DNA of 64,000 bases, taken from assembly GCA_025617745.1 (NCBI GenBank), contig CM046871.1, positions 30,439,094 through 30,503,093 on the forward strand, in the 5' to 3' direction. This DNA is from Heliocidaris erythrogramma. Taxonomy: Eukaryota; Echinodermata; Echinoidea; Camarodonta; Echinometridae. The notes beneath the pieces were generated by a model. That model saw only the letters and a list, made by a program, of their open reading frames with translations, was not told the origin of the DNA and made no database searches. The position numbers and the translations under genes were made by a program. Shown piece after piece: positions 35,630 through 62,356 of the stretch (its first letter is position 1; each line of letters begins with the position of its first letter).

Positions 35630-36425
35630 TTATACTCTAATCTGCACAAATCGTTTTGGTAATGCTGCTCCTAGTGTTGACAATATTCCGGGCCACTGGC
35701 GACAATTTCTACACCATCCTTTTGTTTGAGGGAGGGGATGGGGGAGGGTCTTTGTCCCTCCTTCAAATCGCTGCCAGTGCGATAGTGTCGAATCGGCATC
35801 GGTTTCTCGTTTCACATCCGCGACCCGTTGCGCTGAGAACTGGATGAGGTTGATTTGCATGTCAAGAGCGATATGTGTGTTGTCGTTTCCTGGAGACCGC
35901 GACAGAATAGCAGCGATTGGGACTTCCTTCCCTGGGCGATAGACTAAGGTGCAGTCGTACTGCTGAAGGCGTAGTAACATACGCTGTAAACGTGGCGGTG
36001 CTGAAGTTAGTGGCTTCTGGTGGATCATTTGCAACGGCTTATGATCTGACTCGACTGTGAAGTGCTTGCCGAAAACATAGGTATGAAAACGCTCACATCC
36101 GAAAACAACCGCGAGCATTTCGCGTTCTATGTTGGCGTATCGGGTCTCGGCATCACGCCTTCGATGCATACGCGATGGGTTCTCCTTCTTGAAGGAGTGT
36201 TGCTCCTAAACCACGAGAAGATGCGTCCACCTGCACAACAGTTTCCTTGTTGGGGTCAAAATATCGCAGGGTAGCACTCTCACAAATCTGGTTGCGTATG
36301 TCATCAAGAGCTCGCTGATGATTCTCGGACCATACAAACTCAGTATCTTTCCGAAGAAGTTCTCGAAGATCTGCTGTACGGCTAGACAGATTGGGGATAA
36401 ACGGGCTCAGATATGTTGCCATCAC
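35630..36425 (-). pseudogene. gypsy RT end and RNase H, frameshifted
   Basis: Two overlapping frames continue the pol homology. The frame at 36153-36425 carries the end of RT and the start of RNase H (FVWSENHQRALDDI, then VVQVDASSRGLGATLLQ, where D is the first catalytic acid). The frame at 35630-36169 carries NIEREMLAVVFGCERFHTYV and VESDHKPLQMI (second and later acids). A frame break lies between them. Homology fades after YRPGKEVPIA, near 35900. No integrase zinc-binding or core domain follows. Confidence 0.8.
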
Positions 36426-38545
36426 CAGGCCAGGAACTCCTGAAGTTGGTTCTTGTCACGTGGACCTGGCATGGACTTGACTGCTTTCACCTTAGCTGGG
36501 TCTGGATGAACACCGTGTTCATCGTACACCATGCCGAAGAATGCAATACGCGGCTGGTTGATAGCACATTTGCTGCTGTTGAACTTCAGGCCCCTGTTAG
36601 CAGCGACCTCCATCAACGCGTGAAGATTCCTATCATGGGACTGCTGGGAGTCACCAAAGACGATGTCATCTGCTATCCCGATGACACCTGTACACTGCTC
36701 TAAGATTTGGTCCATTCGATGTTGGAACACATCTTGACTCATCACTAGACCGAATGCCATACGCTTGTAGCAGCATCGCCCAAATGGGCTGTTGAACGTG
36801 GTCAGCAGTTGACTGTCCGCATCCAAGTGTACTGACCAATACCCATGTTTCGCGTCCAGTTTACTAAACACCTTAGCACCTGTGAGCTTGTGTGTGATTT
36901 CCTGCACTGTAGGTGTAGTGTGATGACATCGTTTGATGGCACTGTTCAGGTCCTTTGGGTCTAGACAGACGCGTAACTGACCGTTTGCCTTGCGTGCCAT
37001 AGCGAGACTACTGACCCAATCGGTGGGCTCACTGACTCGACGAATTACACCTTGTTCTTCCATGTCATCAAGCGCTGTTTTCAATTCATCACGGATGTGG
37101 ATAGAGCATTTCCGGGGAGCATGCACCACAGGTTGAGCACCATCATGCAGTACGATGTGGTACTCACCAGCGAAATCTCCAATGGTGCTTTGTGGTTTGT
37201 CCAGTGCGCTTCTCGAGTCAATTGAGAAGTTGAGAGCAACCAGCTTGAGCATTCGGGACGCACGAAGTCCTAGAATCGCTGGTTTGTTTGTGTCACATAT
37301 GTGGAACTCGATATCAGTCCAATCTTTGTTGCCATGACGACAAGGTAGTGTTATGGTTCCATAATGTGTTATGATTGTTTCGTTGTAGACCGAAAGGACA
37401 TCGCTTGTGTCTTTCAGTTGGCCTTTTCGCGGAAAACCTTCAGCATCAAGACTTGACGGAAACATACGACGGTAAACGCGTAAAGGTATGGTGTTCGGTT
37501 GTGAACCAGTATCGACCTTAACGAGAAGATTTACAATGCGCCGCTCTTTGTCCTGGCGGATCTGTACGCGTGTAAACCCTTCATCTTCGCTTTGATCGGA
37601 TATCGCGTCTAATGATGTGAAAATAGCATTCAGCGATAGTTGCTCAAAATTTTCACTAGTATCTGCTACAAGGGGCGTGTGTGCGTCAGTGTAGTGCACA
37701 TCACGAGAAGCTGTCCGTTGATCGCGAGGATTTTCATGCTTCCCTCGCTGGCGCGATTTTGACGGTGTCCGCCGTCGACGTCCGCGACCTCGACCCTTGG
37801 AGTCACGCTGCTGTTGTCGACCGCGAGACGCTTGGCCTCCTTGCTTGGATCGGCACATCTTAGCCCAGTGGTGCATCTTACCACAGCTGTTGCACGTCGT
37901 ATTGTATGCTGGGCATGAGACACGTGATGTCAGAGAGTGACTCCTACCACAGTTACGGCATTCTTGCTTGCGTTGAATCACGTCAACAGATGCTGACTGA
38001 GAATGAACACCTGCGAGTTGTTGCATGTGTGTTAACGATGCTTCGTGAGTGCGGGCATGGTCAAGGCATTGTTGAATATTCAAATCATCTTGGCCCAGAA
38101 GCAGTTTTTGTAATTCGGCGTAGCGTATGCCTGCTATGAATTGCTCAATTACTCTATCAGAAAATTCTCTGTCATCACGAAACCGGCAAGTTTGTGCGTG
38201 TAATTTGAGCCGTGACATGAAGCTATCAACAGTTTCGGTCCCTTGTTGGCGAAACCGCTGTAAGTATAGACGAGCAACCCTGAAGTTTACTTTCGGCTTC
38301 AGCTGTTCTTCAAAACGGTGCCAGACAACTGTTATATTTTTCCTTTTTTCCTCTGTGAGACCCCACGAATTATACATTTTGAGGCCAGGGGTCCCCATAA
38401 AGAGCAAGATGTGATCAACCTGCTTGTCAACCCTGACATTTTTGACGGAGAAGTATAGTTCACATTGTTGTCTAAATATCTGAATTGCCCCTGGTAGGTC
38501 ATCGTCATCCCATGACATTCGCGGCACGACTGAGTCAGTCATCAT
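36422..38545 (-). pseudogene. gypsy gag-protease-RT open frame
   Basis: The frame is open for about 707 codons from ATG-ATG at 38545. The frame continues upstream of this ATG only through a GTG at 38650, so the ATG is preferred. Residues about 10-190 look like a capsid domain. Residues 196-231 hold two zinc knuckles (CRNCG..H..., then CNSCGKMHHWAKMC), followed by an Arg/Lys-rich stretch. Residues 344-348 are VDTGS, the aspartic protease site. The RT domain starts near residue 475, with KLDAKHGYW near 562 and the catalytic IADD at 624-627. Gag and pol are in one frame. The frame ends at 36422 where homology continues in another frame, so a frameshift has occurred. Confidence 0.85.
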
Positions 38546-38775
38546 GTCTCGTATAAAATATTCCCGTACACACACACAGCACCACAACAATCTAGGCTGT
38601 ACACAGATAGTGCGAGGCCGTAAGTTCGGGGAACACTCACCGCGATTCACTGTCCATGAATGTAGCTGAATATAGCATCACTCTCGTGCAGACATTGCAC
38701 AATTCTCCCACTCAAAAGTCACATTTCTGAAGGGCAGAAACACAAGCAAATGGCACTGCTGGCGAGGTAAGAACC

Positions 38776-42160: not shown

Positions 42161-42200
42161 TTAGATATTATAGCCATACCTTGGGCCACCATGAACTGAT

Positions 42201-42382
42201 AACTGGGCGATGTGGCGTGCGCCTGTAATCCAGCTACCAGTGGAAGTTATAAACTGATTCAGCGGACCCAGGTTAGAGACTGAGTCACGTCTTTCGGATG
42301 GTGACGTTAAAGGTCGGTCCCAGACGTAAATAATCATATCTGATTGATACACGTCTGTAAAAACCCAATTACACACACACAC
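42201..42382 (+). mobile_element. 7SL-derived (Alu-like) SINE, copy 2
   Basis: A 170-bp body starts AACTGGGCGATGTGGCGTGC and continues GCCTGTAATCC and AGCTAC. It then has GGACCCAGGTTAGAGACTGA (B-box region, one change from copy 1), CTTTCGGATGGTGACGTTAA and AAACCCAATT, and ends in a (CA)6 tail. The tail is shorter than in copy 1 (about 11 units), the usual behaviour of a SINE microsatellite tail. It is nested in a MITE, so the SINE was mobile after the MITE inserted. Confidence 0.75.
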
Positions 42383-42631
42383 TGATTCATGTCAAATTTG
42401 ATGTGTGAACGTTTTCCATCATGCTCTACCTAAATATGGTCATAAAAATACTGAAATACAAAATTTGATGACGTCACACTTCGGTACTCTATAGAGAGGT
42501 TTTGAAGTAATTTATTCGGTCAAATGTATTTCACTATGGGGTTGACGATGGAACGACCTGAGGTCCAGAGATCTTGCGATACTACATGTAAAATGTATGC
42601 CGCAAGATGGCACTATTTCACGTTTTAGGCT

Positions 42632-53402: not shown

Positions 53403-56400
53403 ATGGCTAATATAGAAGAAGTTGCATGTAGCTTCCTTGAAAATAATGTAAGAACACTAGAGGTCAGTGTTAATGATGAATTTGTTAATGCTTCTCCAAT
53501 TGATTGTCACTATTGTTCTGAAAGTCAATTTATTGATGGGTTTCAAAATAAGCATGAAAACGATGTTACTGTCTTGCATTTGAATATTAGAAGTATGCCT
53601 AAAAATTTTGATGCTTTTAATGCCCTAACCAAAAATTTCAGTGATAGTTCTACAGTAATTGGGGTCACAGAGACTTGGTTCTCGAGTGAGAGTGATGTAA
53701 ATTTATATTATATTCCTGGATATAGTTTGGTGTCTAATCACAGACGTGATAAAAGAGGAGGAGGTGTTGCTTTATACATTCCAGCTGGAATGGACTTCCA
53801 AGTAAGGCATGAGTTAAATATAATGACTGACCAGTTGGAGTCAATTTTTGTGGAGTGTTTTATTCCAGGCAAAAAGAATGTTATATTTGGAGCTGTATAT
53901 AGACCTCCCCAGAGTAATTTAGACCTCTTTGTGAATGAAATGCAGAGTATTTTGTTGAACCCACTATTCATTAATAAGACAATATTCTTAATGGGTGATT
54001 ATAATGCAAACCTTCTTCTGTGTGATGAAAATGATCATCATGATGCTTTTTTGAATATGATGTTGTCCTTTTCTTTAATGCCATTGATTATTAAACCAAC
54101 AAGGGTTACTGAGAGTTCATCTACCCTTATTGATAACATATTTTGTAATATGCAACCTTTTCCATCTTCAGGAATTATAATATCAGATATTTCAGATCAT
54201 TTCCCCATCTTCACTAGGGTGAACTTGTGTAATAGAGCTTATAATCAGGAAGGCAAATACATTCGCAAAAACAATCCTACTAACATTGCGAAGTTTCGGG
54301 AAGCCCTAACGGCAACTGACTGGAGTGAAGTTTTAGTTGAACAAGATATAAATATCTCATTTAACTCTTTTTCTAAAAAGTTCATGCTACTTTATAATGA
54401 AAATGTTCCGATTATCAAACGTAATGGTAGAAATCGTAAGAAAATTCCTCGTATGCCATGGGTCAGTGCTTCTTTGTTAAGATCTATCAATAAGAAAAAT
54501 AAGTTGTTTTATTCTTATAAAGTAAGTGGAACTGAATTATCACGTAAACGATATGTTGATTATAAAAACACTCTTACTTCAGTCTTGCGTGCAGCAAAGA
54601 AAACATATTATTATGCTCAGTTTCACGCAACCTCAAACGATATCAGGGGAACTTGGAAAGTGATAAAAAATGTGTTTAAGTCAAAGAAAAAAACTTCTGA
54701 CGTAAAGAATATAAAAATTGATGGCCGTGAAGTGGAAGATAATAATATTATTGTTAAAAAATTCAATGATTATTTTTGCAGTATTGGTCCTAATCTGTCA
54801 CGGGCAGTCCCTTCCTGTCAACAATCTTATAAAGATTTTCTGAAAGAATCAAACAACAAAAGTTTGTTCTTTTTACCAGTTGATAGGGAAGAGTTGCTTA
54901 CTATTGTGTATTCACTGAAGAATGGGAAAAGTCCTGGTTATGATAGTGTCAATAATGATTTAATTAAGCAGATTATCTTAGGGATTATACAACCCCTAAT
55001 TCATGTTTTTAATTTATCAATGTCAAATGGAATAGTCCCTGTAGACATGAAAATTGCAAAAGTTGTACCCGTTTTTAAAAAGGGAGATCCCCAAGTTTTC
55101 ACTAATTACCGCCCCATTTCCCTCTTAACGTCCTTTTCAAAGATTCTCGAGAAAGTCATTTATGTCAGAACATTAAAGTTTTTTAACAAAAGTAAAATAT
55201 TCTCCAACTTTCAGTTTGGATTTCGAGAGAAACACACTACCTCCCATGCCTTGTTGCACTTTATTGATAAGATTTCACAATCAATAGACAAAAAGATGCA
55301 CACAATCGGTATATTTCTTGATTACTCCAAAGCTTTTGATACTGTAGATCATGACATTTTGCTTGGCAAATTATCACATTATGGTGTCAGGGGTACAGCA
55401 CTGGACTGGTTCAAGAGTTACTTAACCGACAGGAAACAATTTGTCTCTTTAAACAGTATTGATTCAGGGTTACAGAAGGTCACATGCGGCGTTCCTCAGG
55501 GATCTCTCCTTGGTCCGCTATTATTTATTGTGTATATTAATGATTTTCATTACTCATCTGATGTATTATCGTTCATTTTATTTGCTGATGATTCCAGTTT
55601 GTATTACTCGCACAAAAATCCACAGGCTCTTTTAGAAACAGTTAACTTTGAACTAAGTAAAGTTACTTTGTGGATCCAAGCAAATAAATTATCTTTAAAT
55701 CTGCAAAAGACAAATTATATGCTTTTTAGTAATACAATTAAAGTGCTTCCTGGAGATGTATTGTTTAATAATGTTTTGATAGACAGAGTACCAACGACAA
55801 AATTCCTTGGTTTGCACATTGATGAGCAACTGAGTTGGAAAATTCATATAAATCATCTCTGTAAGACATTGTCAAAAAACAGTGGTGTAATACATAAATT
55901 GAAATCATTTTTTCCTAAAGACATTCTTCTTATAATGTACTCAACATTAATTCTTCCGTATCTCAATTATGGTGTCCTTGCATGGGGTAATTCCCTTAAA
56001 ACTCACCTTGAAAAATTATATTTGATTCAAAAGAGAGTCTTAAGAATTATTTGTAATGTCAGCTTTCGTACGCACACTAACCCACTTTTTTATAGGCATA
56101 GAATTTTAAAGTTGCAAGATATTTATAACTTTCAACTGGGTGCTCTCATGTATGGCTTCAATTCTGGTGTCCTACCACTGGCTCTGGCCAGCATTTTTAA
56201 GAAAAATAGTCAAGTACATCATCATGATACACGAAATGCCTCTGCGTTTCACTTACCCCAAGTGAGGACAAAGTTTATTTTCAATACATTGGTTTGCACT
56301 GGTCCTAGGTTCTGGAACTCTCTTGATTCTAGCGTTAAGCAATCTGTTAGCCTCTTTGCATTTCAGCGTACACTTAAGTGTTTTCTTCTTGATAATTATT

Positions 56401-56411
56401 GTGACTCTTAG
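53403..56411 (+). CDS. LINE endonuclease/reverse transcriptase (1,002 aa)
   Basis: An uninterrupted ORF of a non-LTR retrotransposon. The N-terminal APE-type endonuclease shows LNIRS (N61), TETW (E90), RPP near 168, GDYNAN (D199, N201), a KPTRVT block at 231-236, DNIF at 244 and SDH at 264-266. The reverse transcriptase shows FKKGDP and NYRPISLL (about 560-575), DYSKAFDTVDH (about 640), GVPQGSLLGPLLF (from 696) and the catalytic FADD (727-730). The C-terminus has the usual GPRFWNSLD. The order and wording place it in the CR1/Jockey group, near Crack/Daphne-type families. It acts by nicking DNA and priming reverse transcription at the nick. The intact frame suggests a young, possibly active copy. 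The ATG at 53403 starts MANIEE. Confidence 0.9.
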   Translation: MANIEEVACSFLENNVRTLEVSVNDEFVNASPIDCHYCSESQFIDGFQNKHENDVTVLHLNIRSMPKNFDAFNALTKNFSDSSTVIGVTETWFSSESDVNLYYIPGYSLVSNHRRDKRGGGVALYIPAGMDFQVRHELNIMTDQLESIFVECFIPGKKNVIFGAVYRPPQSNLDLFVNEMQSILLNPLFINKTIFLMGDYNANLLLCDENDHHDAFLNMMLSFSLMPLIIKPTRVTESSSTLIDNIFCNMQPFPSSGIIISDISDHFPIFTRVNLCNRAYNQEGKYIRKNNPTNIAKFREALTATDWSEVLVEQDINISFNSFSKKFMLLYNENVPIIKRNGRNRKKIPRMPWVSASLLRSINKKNKLFYSYKVSGTELSRKRYVDYKNTLTSVLRAAKKTYYYAQFHATSNDIRGTWKVIKNVFKSKKKTSDVKNIKIDGREVEDNNIIVKKFNDYFCSIGPNLSRAVPSCQQSYKDFLKESNNKSLFFLPVDREELLTIVYSLKNGKSPGYDSVNNDLIKQIILGIIQPLIHVFNLSMSNGIVPVDMKIAKVVPVFKKGDPQVFTNYRPISLLTSFSKILEKVIYVRTLKFFNKSKIFSNFQFGFREKHTTSHALLHFIDKISQSIDKKMHTIGIFLDYSKAFDTVDHDILLGKLSHYGVRGTALDWFKSYLTDRKQFVSLNSIDSGLQKVTCGVPQGSLLGPLLFIVYINDFHYSSDVLSFILFADDSSLYYSHKNPQALLETVNFELSKVTLWIQANKLSLNLQKTNYMLFSNTIKVLPGDVLFNNVLIDRVPTTKFLGLHIDEQLSWKIHINHLCKTLSKNSGVIHKLKSFFPKDILLIMYSTLILPYLNYGVLAWGNSLKTHLEKLYLIQKRVLRIICNVSFRTHTNPLFYRHRILKLQDIYNFQLGALMYGFNSGVLPLALASIFKKNSQVHHHDTRNASAFHLPQVRTKFIFNTLVCTGPRFWNSLDSSVKQSVSLFAFQRTLKCFLLDNYCDS

Positions 56412-60711: not shown

Positions 60712-60751
60712 ATGTTCATCATCGTTTTTGTGCTTTTATGGTTTTACACAG
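60712..60751 (+). other. Probable 3' splice acceptor before the fucosyltransferase ORF
   Basis: A T-rich stretch (TTCATCATCGTTTTTGTGC, then TTTTATGGTTTTACACAG) ends in AG at 60750-60751, ten bases before the ATG at 60761. It fits a metazoan acceptor with a 5' UTR exon upstream. The exon would start GGCATCACTATG. Confidence 0.6.
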
Positions 60752-60760
60752 GGCATCACT

Positions 60761-61145
60761 ATGTCTTTTCGTCGGACCATGCATCATCTTTGCAACATAC
60801 GGATAGGGATCAAGTCGGCACTGCTCCTCATCCTGGCATGCCTCACCTTACACACAGCATTCCTGCTTCTGATACGGAACGGTTACCTCCTGCCCTCGAA
60901 GAGACACGAAGATGTGATAGACAAACGGCGAGATGTTTCGGAGCCGTCCGAGACACAGCCGGACGTCTCTAGACTGGTGAAGTCTCTGCAGGTCAGAGAA
61001 CAGAAGCTGTATACTGAAGGTGAATCAAAATCAGTAAACGAAATCGTCAGAAATGTCGCCCATTTGTCCAGCAACAGTACAGATGATGATTATAGCACAG
61101 GAAGTGAAAGCGTGACAGCAACTGAGAAAGGAAAAGAGAAAAAAC

Positions 61146-61180
<35 letters not shown>

Positions 61181-62356
61181 AGGTCTGCTAAGGAAAGCGT
61201 TGAGGAGAAAGTGCCTGCAGCTGACAAGAAGAGTTGCATCCGATATGTATCGATCTATTCGCCTCGCATGGAGCCGTTTCATTACTGGCGAGAGTATGTT
61301 AATCTAGAAAAGGCTTTTAAAGGAGCGAAAGATGTGAACAGTTCGCACTATGACAGCCGGATCATTCAGCGCCGGGAGTTCCCGACAATGTTCATTGAGT
61401 GTCCTGGATACCGATGCGACGTGGCCCTGAGGCCGACTGCCGACGAACAGTTCTTGGCCCGAAGCGATGCTGTACTAATTAATGTTGTTCCCCAGGAACT
61501 CCGGTATAAGATGCCCAAACTTTCAGAGCGACTCATCAAGAATCTCCCGAAGCGGGTCAAAGTTTTTTTTTACGCCATGGAGTGTCCGTTAATGATGAAC
61601 CATTGGGATTACACGATCGAAGATATCAAGTATCACTACACGATGACGTATCATTCCGAAAGCGATATCTACTTCCCATACGGTCAGTACATCCCTGGAG
61701 AGCCGATGGACACAGAAGTGATCAACTACGCCGAACACAAGACCGGTCTAGTGGTCTGGACAGCCAGCAATTGCAACAACACTTTCTGGCCGCGGTTGGA
61801 GTGGGTGCGGAACCTGGAGAAACTCCTGGAATTTGACACATATGGCAAATGCGGCAAGAAGACCTGTCTCCCGCCCTTATCTCCTATATGCACCAGGCAA
61901 CAGATGGTTTATAAGTTCTACCTCGCCCTTGAGAATGCACCATGTGATGAGTACGTCAGCGAGAAGGTCTGGGTAAACAGTCTCATGAGTGGACTCGTTC
62001 CGATCGTCTACGGTGGAAGACGCGAAGCCTACGAGCGCGTGATGCCACCGAATTCTTTCGTACACATCAGCGACTTCGCTTCCCAGCAGGAACTCGTAGA
62101 CTACCTCAAGATGATTGACAAAAACGACAATCTCTACAATGAGTTCTTCGCGTGGAGAAGAGAAGGTCGTGTGGAGAAGGTCTATCCCGATCTTTATCCC
62201 AAATCCTTCTGCAAGGTGCTTCCGAAGCTGTCAAAGTACAGTACACCTCCGGTCAAAAGAATCGGTGACTCAAAATACTTCGATGCGTGCCAAGGAGGTC
62301 CTCATAGAAATTTCACCAAAGCAGGAGATATTCACAACTGGTCTCCTTGGAGATAA
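60761..62356 (+). CDS. Alpha-1,3-fucosyltransferase-like (GT10), 531 aa
   Basis: A type II Golgi-type enzyme expected to transfer fucose from GDP-fucose to N-acetyllactosamine or core N-glycan acceptors. ATG 60761 is chosen because the longer open frame has only a TTG start and crosses the splice acceptor. A short basic cytoplasmic tail (1-18) precedes one membrane segment (19-38). A stem (about 40-155) includes ten consecutive Asp at 130-139. The catalytic domain starts near 160. GT10 hallmarks are MTYHSESDIYFPYG (294-307), SNCNN..W..DTYGKCG (336-365) and YLALENAPCDEYVSEKVW (387-404), followed by PIVYGG (414-419) and SFVHISDF (432-439). Likely N-glycan sequons are at 105, 193, 339 and 517. 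The length is larger than typical GT10 (about 360-480) because of the long stem. Substrate and linkage cannot be told from sequence. Confidence 0.88.

Follow-up and report, generated by a model that had tools for sequence, protein, structure and literature searches.

A probable SINE family with a head from the host's own 7SL RNA in the sea urchin Heliocidaris erythrogramma

The window analysed here, a 64,000-nt stretch of contig CM046871.1 from the sea urchin Heliocidaris erythrogramma, contains two copies of a short element whose head derives from the 5′-terminal part of host 7SL RNA. An exact 28-nt core of this head is found at 2,504 places in the same genome, the copies that were fetched share a common 3′ end, and target-site duplications occur around them in excess of expectation. 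We therefore regard the element as very probably a SINE family with recent copies, its head having arisen as a copy of this part of 7SL. An independent Alu-like origin, in which a 7SL head was joined to a non-7SL body in an invertebrate, had been proposed in the initial annotation of this DNA; the proposal is supported by the host-7SL identity of the head, by significant SRP covariance matches and by the presence of many copies.

The plus-strand copy (copy 1, 42201–42382) and the minus-strand copy (copy 2, 1291–1472) are identical at 180 of 182 nt (98.9%), and the element occurs nowhere else in the window. Both dispersed copies had thus been recognized correctly, although the minus copy had been given as 1281–1473; the element itself occupies 1291–1472, and the side towards 1281 is a continuation of the (CA)n run to about that position. 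Likewise, the annotated length of 170 bp holds for the unit (about 170 nt), with the (CA)n coming on top. Each copy starts with AACTGGGCG(T/A)TGTGGCGTGCGCCTGTAATCCAGCTACCAGTGGAAGT and ends with CCCAATT followed by (AC)n, in agreement with the AATT plus (CA)n end that had been described. In copy 1, the 7SL-derived head lies at 42202–42247 (+), aligned by cmscan to model positions 1–44; of the SRP Alu domain it comprises the 5′ half, with helices 2–4 and the UGUAA turn. The head contains an A-box-like GGCGATGTGG and differs from that of copy 2 by one base. The segment that follows (42248–42291, +) shows no 7SL similarity detectable against shuffled sequence and carries a B-box-like motif. This motif had been attributed to both copies; it is intact in the minus copy (GGTTCGAGACT), which we take to be close to a tRNA-type B box, and altered to GGTTAGAGACT in the plus copy. 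The remaining body (42292–42370, +) begins with TTTCGGATGGTGACGTTAAAGG and includes a hairpin, CAGACGT/ACGTCTG (z about −4.0 on copy 2), leading through CCCAATT (overall CTGTAAAAACCCAATT(AC)n) into the (AC)n tail at 42371–42382 (+). Nucleotides 53–92 of the element can also fold as a hairpin (z −2.3), weaker than the 3′ one. No TTTT, and hence no internal T4 terminator, occurs within the element as examined in copy 2. Candidate target-site duplications flank both copies: ACTGAT at 42195–42200 and 42381–42386 (+) for copy 1, a 6-nt match in which the right repeat overlaps the last AC of the tail, and, from flank comparison, CAGTAA at 1474–1479 (upstream side) and 1276–1281 (downstream side) on the minus strand for copy 2 (locus L003).

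The covariance model for metazoan SRP RNA (Metazoa_SRP, RF00017) matches copy 1 with 31.4 bits (E 9.4e-7) and copy 2 with 34.3 bits (E 1.4e-7, at 1379–1471), each searched as a 271-base stretch. The covariance check proposed with the annotation is therefore significant for both copies, although both score below the Rfam gathering score of 70, which is why a default Rfam scan of the window is empty. In a local alignment with nt 1–44 of the Rfam consensus, the head is identical at 30 of 33 positions and scores 27, as against 14 for the best of 20,000 dinucleotide shuffles and at most 11 for tiles of the window lying clear of both copies. The genome searched comprises 1.064 Gb in 26 contigs, and, of 11,405 first-look candidates in the SRP family search, 26 emerged as scored matches. 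Eighteen of these, above the cut-off at 247.8–277.6 bits, are full-length 7SL genes (12 on contig C16, five on C4 and one on C1); the 12 on C16 lie within 41.25–41.72 Mb, many of them spaced about 2 kb apart. The other eight are weaker (24–37 bits), and all eight proved to be copies of the present element, one of them ending early, after nt 65.

Five of the 18 full-length genes were fetched for comparison, together with all eight weak matches. Nucleotides 2–47 of the element agree with nt 1–44 of these five genes at 40, 41, 41, 42 and 43 of 44 positions, with a CA insertion in addition. The closest fetched gene, L065, matches the head of copy 2 at 43 of 44 positions plus the CA insertion, the first 36 nt being identical, and the 7SL part of the element begins at the first base of the Rfam 7SL match. 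Two copies (L070 and L071) carry CATTGG in place of the common form CAGTGG, so that the CA insertion is the sole difference of their 44 nt from L065. Chance resemblance to 7SL is ruled out by the shuffles and the host genes together. Mammalian contamination is likewise rejected, since it is host 7SL, and not the Rfam consensus, that the head follows. In the 5′ Alu domain of the element, 12 of 14 model pairs form, and the two exceptions are identical to those of host 7SL. The A-U and U-A pairs in helix 2, found in place of G-C and C-G, might be mistaken for new compensatory changes under selection; host 7SL has the same pairs, and they are therefore inherited.

The extent of the 7SL-derived part is narrower than had been suggested, in that the predicted 7SL head stands, nearly identical to host 7SL genes, but covers only the 5′ 44 nt and not the whole Alu domain. 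When compared with host 7SL, nt 48–92 of copy 2, which hold the B-box segment, were equalled or exceeded in score by 1,991 of 2,000 shuffles, and nt 94–170 were equalled by 1,820 of 2,000. The full-length covariance match of copy 2 is only about 3 bits above the 5′-only match of copy 1. With nothing 7SL-like beyond nt 47, the head consists of no more than the 5′ Alu half; the comparison with shuffles lends no support to a homologous 3′ arm, despite the hairpin fold of nt 53–92. Retention of both halves of the domain, of which only the 5′ one is recognizable here, is a trait common to Alu, B1 and the hagfish SINE1-1_EBu and is not a naming criterion.

That the host is an invertebrate, as the annotation had supposed, is borne out by its mitochondrial COX1, which fits the echinoderm and flatworm code better (table 9, 931.6 bits) than table 5 (919.1 bits) when scored against the best solved chain, 1occ_A, presumably the bovine protein. 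This gene lies on C24 (12.9 kb), a partial mitochondrial genome in which COX1 is broken under the vertebrate code and the gene order is echinoid-like. The closeness to the solved chain, taken with this gene order, favours an echinoderm, probably a sea urchin. C24 belongs to the small contigs C22–C26 (10–173 kb), of which C26 looks bacterial by eye, as a contaminant or symbiont, and C25 perhaps likewise (L041, L042).

Across the genome, the exact 28-nt head pattern occurs on such a scale (1,216 + 1,288 matches; reversed control, 0) that the description of the element as two copies has to be abandoned. The 193-nt stretch 1281–1473, used as a query, is found unchanged at no fewer than 14 places, its own included, on nine contigs; this search returned 49 matches from 40 scored of 792 first-look candidates. 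Fetched copies have the same junctions, bar a few with internal deletion or truncation, and the same 3′ end with (CA)n. The element is thus a fixed structure lacking most of 7SL, multi-copy and dispersed, as judged from the head matches and the fetched copies. Older copies are also present, such as L008 (77.5% over 89 nt) and another at 90% (L013, also in L050). No match to either of two patterns was found in viral contigs. An apparent preference for C directly before the element (34 of 35) is at least partly an artefact, because the query itself began with that C. Motifs of the form (T)ATAAAA lie about 19–25 nt upstream of the SINE in L005, L006, L022, L032 and L036, some of which have related flanks.

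Flanking sequence was compared at 41 loci, with up to 600 nt per side for L001–L020 and the window copy and about 300 nt for L021–L040. An abutting flank in common with another locus was found in 13 of the 41 and was absent in 28, which, together with the number of head matches, speaks against the possibility, named in the annotation, of just two copies within segmentally duplicated flanks. The sharing groups are L001/L016, L032/L040, L005/L036, L011/L013, L006/L022 and the right sides of L014/L024/L038; shorter flank stretches are common to a few other loci. By hand count, 22 of the first 100 listed head matches sit less than 1 kb from another. Part of the spread, then, is segmental or tandem duplication. 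One satellite-like SINE array (G000:C1:7720593–7721344) contains five exact head matches with 181-nt spacing.

Of 39 insertions, 12 are flanked by a target-site duplication of at least 5 nt, where about 1.1 would be expected. The excess is present in the first set (8 of 31; 0.95 in mismatched flank pairs) and in a second set that was not chosen by the leading base of the query (4 of 8; 0.14 in mismatched pairs). From the first set, seven of 40 loci were set aside as arrays or duplicates, and L033, L034 and L037 dropped out with tails not recognized by the rule; from the second, L069 was left out as a short copy and L071 was missed by the tail rule. Cruder counts, since replaced, were 8 of 35 (expected 0.77) and, in the second set, 2 of 9 (expected 0.12). 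Five of the duplications reach 12–16 nt, two of those five in one satellite array. The check on target-site duplications thus came out only in part as anticipated: 27 of the 39 insertions lack one of 5 nt or more, even though most of those examined (31 of 39) had been picked as near-identical and are presumably young.

These observations bear on two alternative origins. The copies might not be a mobile SINE at all but 7SL retropseudogenes, or satellite or segmental duplications in which a 7SL fragment happens to lie. The tandem arrays, one with exact 181-nt spacing, the shared abutting flanks at 13 of 41 loci and the many insertions lacking a target-site duplication would all fit such an explanation. 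Nevertheless, we consider it very unlikely: a single chimeric structure recurs on many contigs, most loci (28 of 41) share no abutting flank, target-site duplications are in excess, the 7SL content is limited to nt 1–44, and the common 3′ end has (CA)n and not poly(A). The retropseudogene form in particular is contradicted by the fixed foreign body and (CA)n tail of the fetched copies. Alternatively, the element might be a tRNA-headed SINE2 akin to known sea urchin SINEs, its 7SL resemblance being due to chance or convergence. Such a reading could draw on the B-box-like GGTTCGAGACT, tRNA-like by the B-box consensus. The sea urchin SINE entries consulted in a table of PMC3747384 are tRNA-headed, too. 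An origin of this kind is, however, extremely improbable. The identity to a host 7SL gene (43/44) starts from that gene's first base, none of the 20,000 shuffles reaches the observed consensus score, and ARAGORN, run in bacterial mode, calls no tRNA gene in the window; for the first 47 nt, a SINE2 origin is refuted by the 7SL identity. The sequence further downstream may nevertheless derive from a SINE2, in which case the element would be a chimera, and the B-box segment may go back to a tRNA. A search pattern for a tRNA-headed parent matched at one place; it was over-strict (11 differing bases required), and the result says little because, by calculation, only about 4% of unrelated upstream sequence passes it.

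For a SINE headed by host 7SL, a plausible life cycle can be sketched. RNA polymerase III would probably start at the 7SL start site, given an A box in the 7SL piece and the tRNA-like B box GGTTCGAGACT downstream; transcription by this polymerase is suggested by these A- and B-box-like motifs in the sequence. The transcript would begin at ACTGGGCG and read into the body. Its first 44 nt can adopt the 5′-half Alu fold of SRP RNA, and this head may bind SRP9/14 and dock on ribosomes. The 3′ end of the RNA would consist of the hairpin, CCCAATT and (CA)n, to be recognized by the reverse transcriptase of a partner retrotransposon, probably a LINE, which would insert copies through target-primed reverse transcription and leave target duplications of about 5–16 nt in part of the cases.

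A different partner is conceivable, namely Penelope-like elements in place of a LINE, with tandem copies lying between the TATA-like and hammerhead-like motifs of Penelope leaders and feeding into Penelope transcripts. The idea stems from Penelope-like C-terminal frames upstream of the element at four of 40 loci with E <1e-5 (L013, the query's own place; L006, 8e-26; L011, 9e-13; L022, 1e-6), each followed by a TATA-like motif. A Penelope-like N-terminal frame also follows the array in L011, and hammerhead-like patterns match beside L006 and L007, with similar letters seen by eye beside L011 and L013. The Penelope naming of these frames rests on motif resemblance, and Pfam names none of the three Penelope-like pieces. 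Moreover, at 36 of the 40 loci no neighbouring frame of this kind reaches E <1e-5, though half carry only 300 nt of flank; L038 (5e-5) and L007 (0.003) are borderline. Rfam reports no hammerhead at E 0.1 in L006, L007, L011 or L013, the pairs L011/L013 and L006/L022 have flanks in common, and plain insertion into Penelope copies accounts for the association, which may be no more than insertion beside Penelope-like frames followed by duplication. Mobilization by Penelope-like elements is accordingly unlikely in our estimation. The same doubt attaches to the fuller account built on it, in which a third origin in an echinoderm, with a 44-nt half-Alu head and a foreign B box, would be carried or mobilized by Penelope-like elements, its arrays set between TATA-like and hammerhead-like motifs, and not by a LINE. 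The SINE copies at L006, L007, L011, L013 and L022 are mostly in tandem arrays.

In the literature consulted, clear 7SL SINEs are known only from Euarchontoglires and hagfish (Kojima, 2020, PMC7245038; see also Kojima, 2024, PMC10886601). The hagfish family, SINE1-1_EBu of Eptatretus burgeri, is described in PMC7245038 as having 2,363 full-length copies and target duplications of about 17 nt. Like the urchin element, it joins a 7SL head to a non-7SL body and tail, ends in a microsatellite, and has young copies, thousands of copies and target duplications, the latter seen in part of the urchin insertions. SINE1-1_EBu, however, retains 96 nt from the 5′ end of 7SL plus a 7SL 3′ piece (a full Alu domain), whereas the urchin element has 44 nt and no recognizable 3′ piece. 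The hagfish tail derives from an RTE element, with AAC repeats at its end rather than (CA)n, and the two hosts belong to different phyla. Alu, B1, FLAM-C, Tu and GarnAlu of Euarchontoglires, Tu and GarnAlu being 7SL/tRNA chimeras, likewise have a 7SL head with Pol III boxes, which in the urchin element are predicted. As far as the same text goes, these families share 7SL positions 1–63, 76–83 and 267–299, as against 1–44 only here, and Alu and B1 are L1-mobilized with poly(A) tails, as against (CA)n (PMC7245038). Marsupial P7SL_MD and guinea pig P7SL_Cpo, also covered there, resemble the urchin element in being multi-copy, 7SL-derived and outside the classical families; unlike its 44-nt head and foreign body, they consist of full-length 7SL plus poly(A) and are not told apart from retrocopies (PMC7245038). 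Among SINEs of the same kind of host, SURF1/SINE2-4c_SP, SINE2-3_SP and SINE2-8_SP appear in the review PMC3747384 with tRNA rather than 7SL heads and with CR1 or L2 partners.

No invertebrate 7SL SINE was found in the titles and abstract openings of the open-licence literature, where an entry found only in Repbase, or one overlooked, is possible. As far as we have seen, we judge the element to represent a third independent origin of 7SL SINEs, in an echinoderm and in a reduced form that carries only half of the Alu domain. The existence of two 7SL SINE lineages has been taken, in PMC7245038, as support for the whole Alu-domain structure being needed in efficient spread. A half-Alu family with 2,504 exact head matches in another phylum would make it possible to distinguish what each Alu half contributes. 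The rarity of 7SL SINEs could then also be studied from three independent origins, not two, the new one being in an invertebrate and with apparently recent copies.

Other features of the window include a 1002-aa endonuclease-reverse transcriptase frame of a LINE (53403–56411, +), the 3′ region of which has no SINE-like tail by eye, and frames for reverse transcriptase and RNase H that probably belong to an LTR-type retrotransposon (35630–38650, −). The single long frame at 60728–62356 (+) encodes fucosyltransferase domains (glycosyltransferase family 10), and a long repeat unit recurs in roughly a dozen diverged copies over 7095–33110, among tetranucleotide and GA-rich tracts.
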